DNA from: Branchiostoma lanceolatum
Lineage: Eukaryota; Chordata; Leptocardii; Amphioxiformes; Branchiostomatidae
Assembly (NCBI RefSeq): GCF_035083965.1
Contig: NC_089732.1
Span: forward strand, 14,676,424 to 14,740,423
Reading direction: 5' to 3'
Length of the DNA stretch: 64,000 nt
In this document: positions 18,917 to 57,978 of the stretch, in pieces
Position numbering within the stretch: the first letter of the stretch is position 1
How the letters are laid out: every line of letters begins with the position of its first letter
Program-made: the position numbers and the translations under genes
The notes under the pieces: model-generated
The model's database searches: none
What the model was told of the DNA's origin: nothing
What the model saw: only the letters and a program-made list of their open reading frames with translations

Positions 18917-18991
18917 TCAACGGAAATGTGCATAGTCGTCAAAACTATCCAGATACTCCATCACAGCCTTGTAGCAGAACAGGTATTGCTC
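18917..18991 (-). CDS. Terminal phosphatase exon (end of D2)
   Basis: Encodes [20 protein letters not shown] plus four residues and the stop. It matches the last helix of receptor phosphatase D2 domains, where a Q-Y motif follows the MVQT of the previous exon. The acceptor TAG at 18992-18994 and phase 0 agree with exon 20014-19879. Too short for open-frame scans. Confidence 0.88.
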   Translation of the reverse strand, partial: EQYLFCYKAVMEYLDSFDDYAHFR

Positions 18992-21900
18992 CTACAATTT
19001 TTAGATAAGATAATGATCCCTTTTTGTTATCGTTATCATACAAACATGTTAACAAAATATGTGAACAAAGAACTCGTGTAAAGACGCCAGTGGGTGAAAA
19101 GGCTAATTGAGATGATAATTGATAAAAAGCATTATGATTTCAGATATTACCGCATTGATGTTAGAACAAAACATATCTTAGTAGTTTGAAACGCGATACA
19201 CTTTATCGTCTTACTGTGACCAGTGTGTAGCTGTCTGAAACAAGTTTTAACTGTAATTTCCAACACAAGAATTGGACATACCCAAATTTTCGACTGTACG
19301 ACACCAGTCTTTGTCAAGGAGTGAGCAATTGACCAAGACTAGTGTCGTACAGTAGAAATTTGGGTCCAATTTTTGTGTTGAAAATTACAGTTAAAACTTG
19401 TTTCAGAATGTTTTCTACAGATTAACTATCAAGCTAAGTGTGCAGCTGTATTGGTTTGCATATTTCATTCATTATGGTTGTTATAAAGCAAGGATGAAAA
19501 GAGTGTTTAACAAAGTCTTCTATACACCTGTATGATCACCTGTCGACGTTTTTCCCAGCCGGGACCCGGCCGGGCTGTTTGCGGAAACGTAATATCAAAG
19601 TGTATATCAATAAATATGGACAACAATTTTTGGTACGTTTTGTGCTTTTGGCTGTCTTTTATATTATACTTTACGTTCTCAAAGACTGCCCGGCCGGGCC
19701 CCGGTTTGGAAATGTGACCCAAGCATTACTCTGGCTCTACTTCGCTCTGCAGCTATAGCTACAATACAGGAATTGCCGATACATCAACAGCTGATTATAT
19801 ACGGTTTATGCGGTGTTAAGAAGCGATGTACCAACCCGATTAAACGATTCAATAATGAAAGGAATTGAAATGACTTACGGCAGTCTGTACCATGTGAGGC
19901 CGGCTGTACCGCATAGACTTGACCGTCTGGAACAGATCACAGATCCCCTCAGCTTTCACACGCTCCAGGACAGTGTTCAGGGCGATGAACGCTCCCGTGC
20001 GACCTGCACCGTTACTGCGTGGTGATATAAAAAGTGCTGCTATTTATATCTTTTTAGAAAACACACGTTCATATAATGCACATCTACTGATTTTTTTTCG
20101 TAACTGCCACATGACCTCCACCAAGCTTCTTCATTCGTACAGCAAGTTAGTGGTTGATTCACCCGCAACACTTCGATTATGTTCTTGGATATAATCATAT
20201 TGCTTACAAATTGCTAAAAGACTGTTGAAACAGACCATGGTAACAGAATATATGAAAGAAGAATACATGTATATACGATGGTTGAGTACCGTACGCTACA
20301 CGGTTATAAATCCCTGCTGAAACACTTCTGAAACACCGCTTGAACACTTTTTAAACAATGCAAAAGCAATCTAAAACACAACTAAAACACGTTTAAATCA
20401 CTGCTAAAACACCTCTGAAACACCTCTGTAACAGTGCTAAAACACCTCTGAAACACTGATGTATCAGTGCTAAAACACTGCCAAAACACTGCTATGACAT
20501 TCAATACAAGCAACTCATACCTGCAGTGTACGGTGATTGGTCTGTTTCCCGATTTTATCTGCTGCTTTTGGACCTGGCCTATCAGATCCAGGACCCTGCT
20601 GGCGTTCTGTGGCACGCCGGTTGTCGACCAGTCGTGGAACTCGAAATGACTAATCTCCCTCCGCGGTGACTCCTAAGTCAATCGATAAAAATTAGAAGAT
20701 CAGTGAATAGTCTTATTAAGTTTAAAACTCCTAGTTAACAAAGTCCCATACAACCAATGTGTTTTACCCTCGTGAAAATGGAGGTATTGTTTTGGGCGTG
20801 TCTGTGTGTTAGCTTGCTTGGTTGTTTGTTTGTTTCTTTGTTTGCTTGTGATAAGTGTCCAGATGTTTGTGGTCAGCATAATTTAAAAGAACGGCTTGAT
20901 GTATTGCGATGATATTTGATAGTTTGGTATGTCTTGGGAAGACGAATGTCAAGATCTAGTGTGTGACCTTGGTACTTTAGCAAAACTTCGAATTCTGGTT
21001 TCTGTATCTTTTGTCCTAAACCTGCCATGGCCTTTATTTCTTGTTAAGAAAGATAGCTTTTGATGTAAGGAAGACGTGGTGTAGGTTTGGGCCTCCTAGC
21101 AGCATGTTCAGGAACAGCAGGGGCGTTTTTGATAAAATGTTCCAAAGAGGACAACTCAAGAAAGGAACAATAGTTTAGGCATGTGGGTAGCTCAGATAAA
21201 GATGGCGACAATGAAATACGAATCATGTAAAGGTAGGGCTATCAAGTGATTGGCTTACTTGTTCGTCAGTGTTGGATACTTGGAAGGTGCGGAGAGTGTA
21301 GCCCTCGCTCTCCTCCGTTTCCTTCAGCTCAACTCTGATGTTCCCGTACTGCTGACTGTCATCCGGCCAGTACTTAGAGCATTTCTCCTGTGTCAAACAC
21401 AATGTCATTGTTTCATTTCAATCGCAAATAGATGATTGTAAACCCGGCAGCAATTCAGCACTGCCTGCCATTGCACGGGTACTTTCTGACCAATAAACCA
21501 TCATTATCATTCGTTGATGAAGGTTAGACATCCAGGTAATAAGATACGCCAAAAATAATTACTCAAGCAACTGGATAAGATTTTGAAACAGTCAGACGTT
21601 TCAGACAGTATCCACTGTCTTTCGTCAGTGACTAACGATAGGACTGAGAACACCAGATTTATACCAAAACTCTGAATAGATATGTTAATGAGGTAAAGAC
21701 AATTTAGGATGTCTTGAAGTAGTCTTCAAAAAGAAGATTAATACATTGCAGAAAGAGCGCTAACCGCTACTCCTCTGCCATTTACCACCATCTAAAACAC
21801 AACCAGGGACACTCATTCAATTTCGAATCCACGGACATCCTAGATCGTGAAGAACGCTGGTTCGAACGGGGAATTAGAGAAGCAATATATGAGAGGATGT

Positions 21901-56698: not shown

Positions 56699-57978
56699 GG
56701 ATGTGTAAATAAAAAATCAAGATATCTATTTTTGGATTGTAATCTTAACGACCTTCGCCAAGTTATTTTGTCTCATCACAATGTTTTTTGTTTGTTTTTT
56801 TAAATATTTTTTTAACTCAATAAACAACAAATAAAACACAAACTAAACTAAAAAAGCCAAGATGGCAATAGATAAGATAACAGAAAAAAGCTAAAGAGAA
56901 GAAGCCTCCCATAATAAAACCGTAGAATTGGTCGTGGCAACAGTATCAATATCATGATTAGCTTAAAAACGTAAAAATAAACGAAAGTATAATAAACATA
57001 ATTTTCCTCACTTACCCCGATGCTTCTCCAATGTTGTTAGTAACTATGGAAATCACTTGATTTCAATCATATATGACTAAAAATGCCCACTTTTACATGA
57101 AGTGCATATTTCACAAATATGAAATCTATATCATTTGTAGATTAGTTTTGGCAGCCGTTGTTCATTGTAGACTTGGAAATGAGTCTGTTATCAGTATAAT
57201 CTATATGAATTCATTATCCCCTAGTTCCAAATCATATGCGTTGCAAAGATAGTTTTTTTTGGAAGCTATCGTACAGTTTCCTCATTAATGAGGCAAACTA
57301 TGTAAATTACATCATCTACATGTAAGTTTGATGATATTCACCTTCATCTCACATGTGTCACAAGTATAAACATTGCACTTTTCACCCCTAAAGTTGTATG
57401 CAGCTCATATAATGATTTTAATCATGTATGAGTATGAAGTTCCTGTCATTTAGCACAATTCAACTAAAGATTTCTCTGATGTACCATTCCAAAGCTGAAA
57501 ACACAAATCACCATACTTAAGATCGAAAAAAATAACGAATAGTTAGATCATCTGATCAAGATGTATCATTGATAATGACATGTTGTATTGCAATTTGACA
57601 AATTTAATTACATTTTCAATTAGCTCGTTTGCTCATTTCCCATCTATTTTGTCTTGATTTAAGTTATCTATCAAAACTCACCGTTTTTGGTATATGATAC
57701 AGTATCATGTTGTTGTTGTTTTCTAAACCCAAACAAATACGCGATAATGGTGACCTGTTGAAAGACCTTACCTGAAGACAGGCCGAGATTTCCTCAGCTG
57801 AAAGCGCGTCTGGATAAGACACAGCAGGATTTCAAGGTGATCACCTTTAAAAGCGGTTATTCCTTTTAGTACAACCAATTGATAGGTTCTGTCATTTTAA
57901 TTACATATTTTATCCACCAATATCCATCATTTATTTCCTTTCTTCCCATTACAGCCTTATACGTCACTGCTGAAATAG
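56607..57978 (+). pseudogene. Decayed kinase C-lobe exons and original 3' end
   Basis: Exon 56607-56704 encodes [19 protein letters not shown] but is 98 nt where the phases require 97; an extra A in the run 56608-56611 shifts the frame. Exon 57737-57836 has the right length (100 nt) and encodes YAIMVTC, then PEDRPRFPQLKARL, but its acceptor reads AA instead of AG and the conserved Trp of the C-W pair is TGA (57759-57761). Exon 57955-57978 encodes PYTSLLK and stop. An AATAAA lies at 58319-58324. Three independent lesions suggest loss of this C-lobe in this haplotype. Confidence 0.8.

Follow-up and report, generated by a model that had tools for sequence, protein, structure and literature searches.

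Analysis of a 64,000-nt window of one Branchiostoma lanceolatum assembly (the window being the whole stretch of DNA that was analysed) indicated that two neighbouring genes, together spanning approximately 18-58 kb, diverge from each other: a predicted receptor tyrosine phosphatase on the minus strand (ATG at 39007) and a predicted receptor tyrosine kinase on the plus strand (ATG at 40996), the two ATGs being 1,988 nt apart. An inverted duplication of one receptor front is well supported as the origin of the pair, since the inverted homology between the loci is collinear and includes intron sequence as well as the upstream flank. As sequenced, the kinase looks broken in its C-lobe. We consider the account that combines this architecture with a broken kinase to be probable, without regarding the matter as settled.

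Inverted homology between the two receptor fronts

The DNA homology is inverted, runs collinearly through both loci and comprises the upstream flank with the signal-peptide exon, the EGF-like/sushi exon with its following intron and stalk exon, and the membrane exon. The flank and signal-peptide block of the phosphatase side (39594-38948, minus strand) aligns with that of the kinase side (40395-41055, plus strand) at 66% over 701 columns, leaving a mirrored flank upstream of the two ATGs. The EGF/sushi, intron and stalk block of the phosphatase gene (36500-35563) matches 43560-44527, the second of three such units in the kinase gene, at 75.3% over 985 columns and the third unit at 73.0% over 969 columns, and the membrane exons (31600-31484 versus 48881-48999) match at 91.6% over 119 columns. 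As a control, the plus locus was reversed but not complemented, which gave four matches at E up to 10, each with an E of 4.1. Part of the mirrored flank block may be a dispersed repeat, because its outer edge also resembles 38313-38548: on the phosphatase side 39492-39654 is similar to 38378-38548, and on the kinase side 40396-40571 is similar to 38489-38313.

Exon phases are equal in the two genes, being 0>1 for the signal-peptide exon (55 nt in each), 1>1 for the EGF/sushi and stalk exons and 1>2 for the membrane exon. Membrane segments were scanned over 29330-34730 on the minus strand and 46000-50860 on the plus strand, and within these ranges usable splice sites were found only on the shared membrane exon, which was one of three candidates on the minus strand and one of four on the plus strand. 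This bears on the idea that the pairing is a gene-model error, in which front and catalytic exons of different transcripts were joined by eye and phase. Such errors are common among novel domain combinations in lancelets, according to two earlier studies (PMC6071037, PMC4967905); however, each catalytic region needs a membrane span, the one usable candidate for each in the scanned stretch is homologous to the other, and phases agree throughout. We hold this explanation to be very unlikely. An assembly artefact, in the form of a haplotype or contig misjoin at the inverted junction or at the kinase 3' end, appears about as improbable: other tandem and dispersed copies in the window, described below (P450, NHL and a 0.86-kb repeat), would ease misassembly, but the shared blocks are approximately 8 to 34% diverged and the fronts run into distinct exons, unlike misjoined alleles.

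Lesions in the kinase C-lobe

Both gene models were assembled from exons chosen by hand according to homology, open frame, splice signals and phase; across the two, the weakest accepted acceptor (of 45) scores -2.2 and the weakest accepted donor (of 47) -0.5. From the ATG at 40996 to position 56358, the kinase model comprises 24 exons (3,064 nt, 1,021 aa) in consistent phase and with no stop. It has the features of a receptor tyrosine kinase, namely a signal peptide, an ectodomain, one membrane span and a kinase domain with VAVK, HRD and DFG, the signal peptide and the membrane span having been judged from the sequence. The kinase exons TK1-TK6 (50867-56358, plus strand), which include the Gly loop and DFG, give a Pfam match of 231.4 bits over profile positions 1-201 of 258.

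Beyond this point the reading frame appears to break down. Exon TK6 runs to 56358 and leaves one base over, and the C-lobe exon TK7 (56607-56704, plus strand), identified by homology and splice scores, has a strong acceptor (6.3) in the wrong frame from 56358; entry via 56607 gives a non-conserved frame that meets a stop at 56698. The conserved TK7 frame (NNPYKGM...) can be reached from 56358 only via an acceptor at 56566 that scores -2.8, and the frame clash is probable, not certain. No candidate donor of TK7 scores above -1.9, compared to -0.5 for the weakest accepted donor. The next C-lobe exon, TK8, identified by alignment (57738-57836, plus strand), reads YAIMVTC, then an in-frame TGA at the position of a conserved Trp, then KTLPEDRPRF, and this TGA persists whichever TK7 acceptor holds. 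Directly 5' of TK8 there is no AG; the nearest one upstream would start the exon at 57703 (score 1.3), and such an exon would still meet the TGA or another stop.

Possible rescues were enumerated from the TK6 donor at 56358, with acceptors and donors within 56400-57960. Forty-eight two-intron paths reach PEDRPRF in frame, and two of these 48 include NNPYKGM, both by way of poor splice scores (-2.8, -3.7 or -10.7, and -4.3). Paths containing YAIMVTC are impossible, as the TGA sits between YAIMVTC and PEDRPRF. Hence, no two-intron path keeps every C-lobe segment, and the complete C-lobe of a receptor tyrosine kinase was not recovered. Eight alternative TK6 donors were also considered and rejected, the sole open one in the phase that fits 56607 scoring -7.9. 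A further C-lobe exon was detected neither with Pfam over 53501-63400 of the plus strand nor when FGFR3 and RET segments were compared with the whole window by tblastn, in which the remaining matches had E values of at least 1.3. An AATAAA lies at 56708, 10 nt after the TK7 stop, and a transcript could end there; sites of this type are common in AT-rich DNA.

If lesions were evenly spread over the kinase reading frame, of which the upstream 3,064 nt are stop-free, the chance of finding three within approximately 200 nt would be approximately 2e-4, a rough estimate under a uniform model that becomes larger if the frame clash is left uncounted. All other modelled exons of both genes are free of stops and frame clashes. 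The clustering therefore argues against scattered errors and against decay of the whole gene. The candidate explanations left are that the C-lobe was lost locally, that the lesions belong to one allele, or that the 3' end was assembled from a different copy.

Architecture of the two genes

The structure of the window is eukaryotic. Pfam scans of translated frames (18501-40900 on the minus strand, 40501-63400 on the plus strand) identified tyrosine phosphatase exons and a sushi exon near 36.2 kb on the minus strand; on the plus strand they identified two sushi exons, FN3 exons, kinase exons and, further downstream, pieces of the kinase C-lobe. Strict exon lists based on splice sites alone gave nothing or two items, and the thresholds were then lowered. 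An automatic exon-chain model contained wrong or doubtful exons and was replaced by hand-chosen exons with checked phases; the items dropped included exon 28469-28366 for D1, exon 53750-53925 for the kinase, which is of low complexity, and the ends at 19536 and 56698.

The phosphatase model consists of 24 exons with GT/AG sites and consistent phase and is fully open from the ATG at 39007 to the stop ending at 18917, encoding 874 aa. On the minus strand it comprises the signal-peptide exon (38953-39007), which aligns with that of the kinase gene; the EGF-like/sushi exon (36080-36316); four short Thr/Pro stalk exons, each 1>1 (35698-35633, 35480-35415, 35272-35207 and 34792-34733), the third and fourth of which have weak splice scores (acceptor -2.2 and donor -0.5 for the third); the membrane exon (31513-31633), placed by DNA homology; a cytoplasmic juxtamembrane linker exon (30815-31020) chosen by phase and open frame only, with no homology; nine exons for D1 (24644-29321); and seven for D2 (18917-24346), the last being 18991-18917. 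Pfam Y_phosphatase matches two stretches with 573.8 bits, and the same model contains the sushi domain at 41.7 bits. D1 has the active-site motifs WPD and HCX5R; D2 has WST where the WPD loop is expected. Among solved structures, D1 and D2 together are closest to PTPRA (732 bits) and PTPRE (670), with PTPRS next (582), in a comparison whose query differs from the final model at two junction residues.

The tandem D1-D2 of PTPRA and PTPRE thus matches over its full length, and the C-terminal tail of the phosphatase is also similar, with YAHF in place of the YANF of PTPRA. The ectodomain of PTPRA and PTPRE is short and unfolded, without folded modules, unlike the EGF-like/sushi module and stalk exons found here. 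Judged by these comparisons, the phosphatase is of R4 type in its catalytic part only, because a sushi domain sits in its ectodomain. The linker exon contains VVYDNVP, and the tail (18917-18991) reads DYAHFR, compared to DYANFK in PTPRA. If Y-x-N is read as a Grb2-type site, as we assume, it is possible that this site has moved from the tail to the linker. One D2 intron holds an inverted repeat with 214-nt arms that are 97% complementary (21537-21750 and 22052-22265), probably a small transposon.

The kinase receptor has the larger ectodomain, with three EGF/sushi units, FN3 domains and a part resembling PTP_tm, and a SAM domain precedes its kinase. On the plus strand, the signal-peptide exon (40996-41050, 0>1), which aligns with that of the phosphatase gene, is followed by unit 1 (EGF-like/sushi 42291-42527, stalk 42846-42911), unit 2 (43750-43986 and 44388-44453) and unit 3 (45282-45488 and 45869-45934), the first two supported by Pfam and the third by alignment. 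The EGF/sushi exon of unit 3 has a 30-nt in-frame deletion by which one sushi Cys is lost with the frame still open. Pfam-supported FN3 exons (46144-47378) come next; among solved structures they are most similar to PTPRF (53.8 bits), which ranks first, ahead of the other 55 sequences listed, and PTPRS reaches 42 bits. The membrane-proximal ectodomain (47506-48697) resembles the PTP_tm of PTPRJ with a score of 24.5 bits (E 3.5e-5), slightly short of the curated cut-off of 26.3, and contains RKRR, presumably a furin-like site. The membrane exon (48863-48968, 1>2) was placed by DNA homology, and two exons (49995-50389) encode a cytoplasmic SAM domain (SAM_1 24.6 bits, cut-off 23). Weak acceptors in this model are those at 46702 and 51513 (both -0.5) and 48655 (-1.6).

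With a query that read through the broken C-lobe as X, the kinase scored 251.6 bits against FGFR3, 251.6 against RET and 248.2 against Tie-2 as single-domain kinases; an EGFR chain with two kinase copies reached 304.5 bits in total, or 148.9 per copy. The kinase domain is thus like that of FGFR, RET and Tie, families whose ectodomains consist of Ig, cadherin or EGF-Ig-FN3 modules. The receptor described here differs from them in its ectodomain and in its broken C-lobe: Pfam gave no Ig or cadherin match in it, and sushi, FN3, PTP_tm-like and SAM parts are found instead. Its FN3 and membrane-proximal parts look phosphatase-like, resembling those of LAR-type (PTPRF/PTPRS) and R3 (PTPRJ) receptor phosphatases, and are here joined to a kinase rather than to a phosphatase. 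The likeness to PTP_tm is worth a check, because one study (PMC5336234) is reported to have found no R3 receptor phosphatase in amphioxus.

By tblastn, no convincing kinase vestige in the phosphatase locus or phosphatase vestige in the kinase locus was found at E below 1. A search of the same kind gave no convincing trace of FN3, membrane-proximal or SAM sequence in the phosphatase locus (one match with E 0.85, containing stops). The preliminary description had placed a receptor tyrosine phosphatase at 39007-18917 on the minus strand, with a start approximately 2 kb from that of the kinase gene and with homologous signal-peptide, EGF/sushi, stalk and membrane exons in matching phase; the Pfam match, the open 24-exon model, the distance between the ATGs, the inverted DNA homology and the model phases bear it out on these points. 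The receptor tyrosine kinase that it drew from 40996 to 57978 stands as a receptor of 24 open exons to 56358, whereas the end at 57978 is not supported: good splice sites that would join the C-lobe exons after 56358 in frame were not found, and the last of these exons contains the TGA. The wording that both genes are built on the same front half was too strong, given the two additional EGF/sushi units, the FN3 and membrane-proximal domains and the SAM domain of the kinase gene.

Divergence of the EGF/sushi exons

When the EGF/sushi exon of the phosphatase gene was compared with each of the three copies in the kinase gene, dN/dS was 0.95, 0.85 and 0.80 (Nei-Gojobori). Within the kinase gene, units 1 and 2 gave 0.54 (bootstrap 0.29-1.02) and the other two pairs of units 0.95 and 0.88. 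Variation among the three full-length copies affects 33 of 78 residues, with all eight Cys invariant (P 0.009) and 15 of the 19 Cys/Trp/Gly positions fixed (P 0.027). This pattern fits a constrained cysteine scaffold with a fast-changing surface, and weak constraint fits it too.

These values are pertinent to the proposal that the kinase gene is a pseudogene in decay, which would leave the phosphatase as the sole functional gene of the pair. The C-lobe frame clash, TGA and poor splice signals, the 30-nt deletion in sushi unit 3 and the dN/dS of 0.80-0.95 between the loci would all agree with it. However, 24 upstream exons that remain open over 3,064 nt with conserved kinase motifs are unexpected under neutral decay of the whole gene, and the value for units 1 and 2 also speaks against it. 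We regard the proposal as unlikely, if a serious contender.

Other repeats in the window

A 0.86-kb repeat occurs in three copies (37357-38221, 41198-42061 and 52384-53247), the second and third being 84.7 and 92.3% identical to the first; one copy sits in the first intron of the phosphatase gene, one in that of the kinase gene and one between TK3 and TK4. This repeat does not belong to the inverted duplication, because its copies are on the same strand of the window. A tandem duplication (1971-9010 and 9282-16196, 93-94% identical) has cytochrome P450 matches on its minus strand in the one frame scanned. Downstream of the kinase gene, two minus-strand open reading frames with NHL repeats (60080-60634 and 62711-63577) lie inside a 2.66-kb direct repeat.

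Discussion

We propose that the divergent pair arose from one receptor front, made up of the flank and signal peptide, the EGF-like/sushi module, the Thr/Pro stalk and the membrane span, by exon shuffling and a segmental duplication in inverted orientation. In the sequence, one copy stands before a tandem phosphatase of PTPRA/PTPRE type and the other before a kinase of FGFR/RET/Tie type that carries SAM and an RPTP-like FN3 ectodomain; the order of events is our inference. The preliminary description likewise invoked an inverted duplication that placed one front before two enzymes, and the collinear inverted homology, with its intron and flank, agrees with it.

Several points weigh against the account of a duplicated front and a broken kinase. 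The splice scores are simple weights set by ourselves and untrained on B. lanceolatum, all exon junctions are predicted from sequence, and upstream exons were picked for openness, hence the absence of stops in them is partly built in. The TK7 frame clash is not certain because the score of acceptor 56566 is close to, barely below, that of the weakest accepted acceptor. Moreover, the lesions come from a single assembly and might reflect allelic variation or errors of sequence. With respect to the duplication, the membrane exon stands out from the other shared blocks by its much higher similarity (5 differences in 81 nt, compared to 44 to 48 in 234 nt for full-length EGF/sushi exons), which makes a single event uncertain and gene conversion or separate timing for this exon possible. 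The branching order of the four EGF/sushi units was not resolved by 2:2 site splits (11, 13 and 7), and constraint on the shared exon is unproven, because the bootstrap intervals of dN/dS between the loci include 1.

Because their exposed modules are homologous, the two receptors may bind one ligand in common or ligands that are related. The phosphatase would be expected to remove phosphotyrosine and a full kinase to add it, as judged by family knowledge; as sequenced, a complete enzyme is predicted on the phosphatase arm only. The kinase gene would give at most a receptor with a kinase domain cut short in the C-lobe, and such a product would be limited to competing for ligand or to pairing with other receptors. 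In this haplotype it may thus serve as a decoy or a dominant-negative partner, or have no activity.

The paired opposing-receptor system under coordinated control envisaged in the preliminary description fares less well, as the kinase C-lobe looks broken and dN/dS of the shared binding exon is indistinguishable from 1; a functioning antagonistic pair is doubtful in this haplotype. As regards a possible bidirectional-promoter gene pair, the features seen are the 1,988 nt between the divergent ATGs and the mirrored flank. In the species, a working pair with the same ligand and opposite effects on phosphotyrosine would require the lesions to be private to an allele or errors of sequence. The shared front with its mirrored flank, the kinase motifs present to 56358 and the in-frame, if weak, acceptor of TK7 are in its favour; yet several lesions confined to TK7-TK8 with other exons clean are unlike scattered errors, the ectodomains differ in size and content, and ligand, expression and antagonism are conjecture. 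We consider a working pair unlikely. It is also conceivable, and about as unlikely, that selection has kept the pair with its kinase side now a truncated decoy or partner that competes with the active phosphatase for the same ligand or gates its access to it. The probabilities that we attach to the duplicated front with a broken kinase, to a working pair and to a pseudogene overlap, since the broken-kinase account is compatible with a remnant that has a role or has none.

Paired receptors such as KIR, LILR and SIRP have homologous ectodomains that arose by local duplication and signal in opposite ways through adaptors or ITIMs. The present pair resembles them in having ectodomain modules that are homologous through local duplication, and opposite signalling from behind these modules is predicted, the phosphatase being complete as modelled and the kinase apparently broken in this assembly. 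Unlike in those receptors, two unrelated enzyme domains follow the shared front here. The tyrosine kinases of amphioxus were surveyed in 2008. Among the matches listed in the open PMC library, no paper describes such a locus in its title or the start of its abstract, which agrees with the earlier statement that no described locus of this design is known.

If both genes are expressed, a single binding front would serve both halves of the phosphotyrosine switch from genes that start within 2 kb of each other. This would allow us to ask directly if ectodomains are interchangeable between kinases and phosphatases, and if the logic of paired receptors exists beyond adaptor-based immune receptors. 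Exon shuffling is reported to be very active in lancelets and to favour 1-1 exons (PMC4284660), and the EGF/sushi and stalk exons of both genes belong to this class. The phosphatase-like ectodomain on the kinase side may bear on the exchange of ectodomains between receptor classes via shuffling of 1-1 exons.

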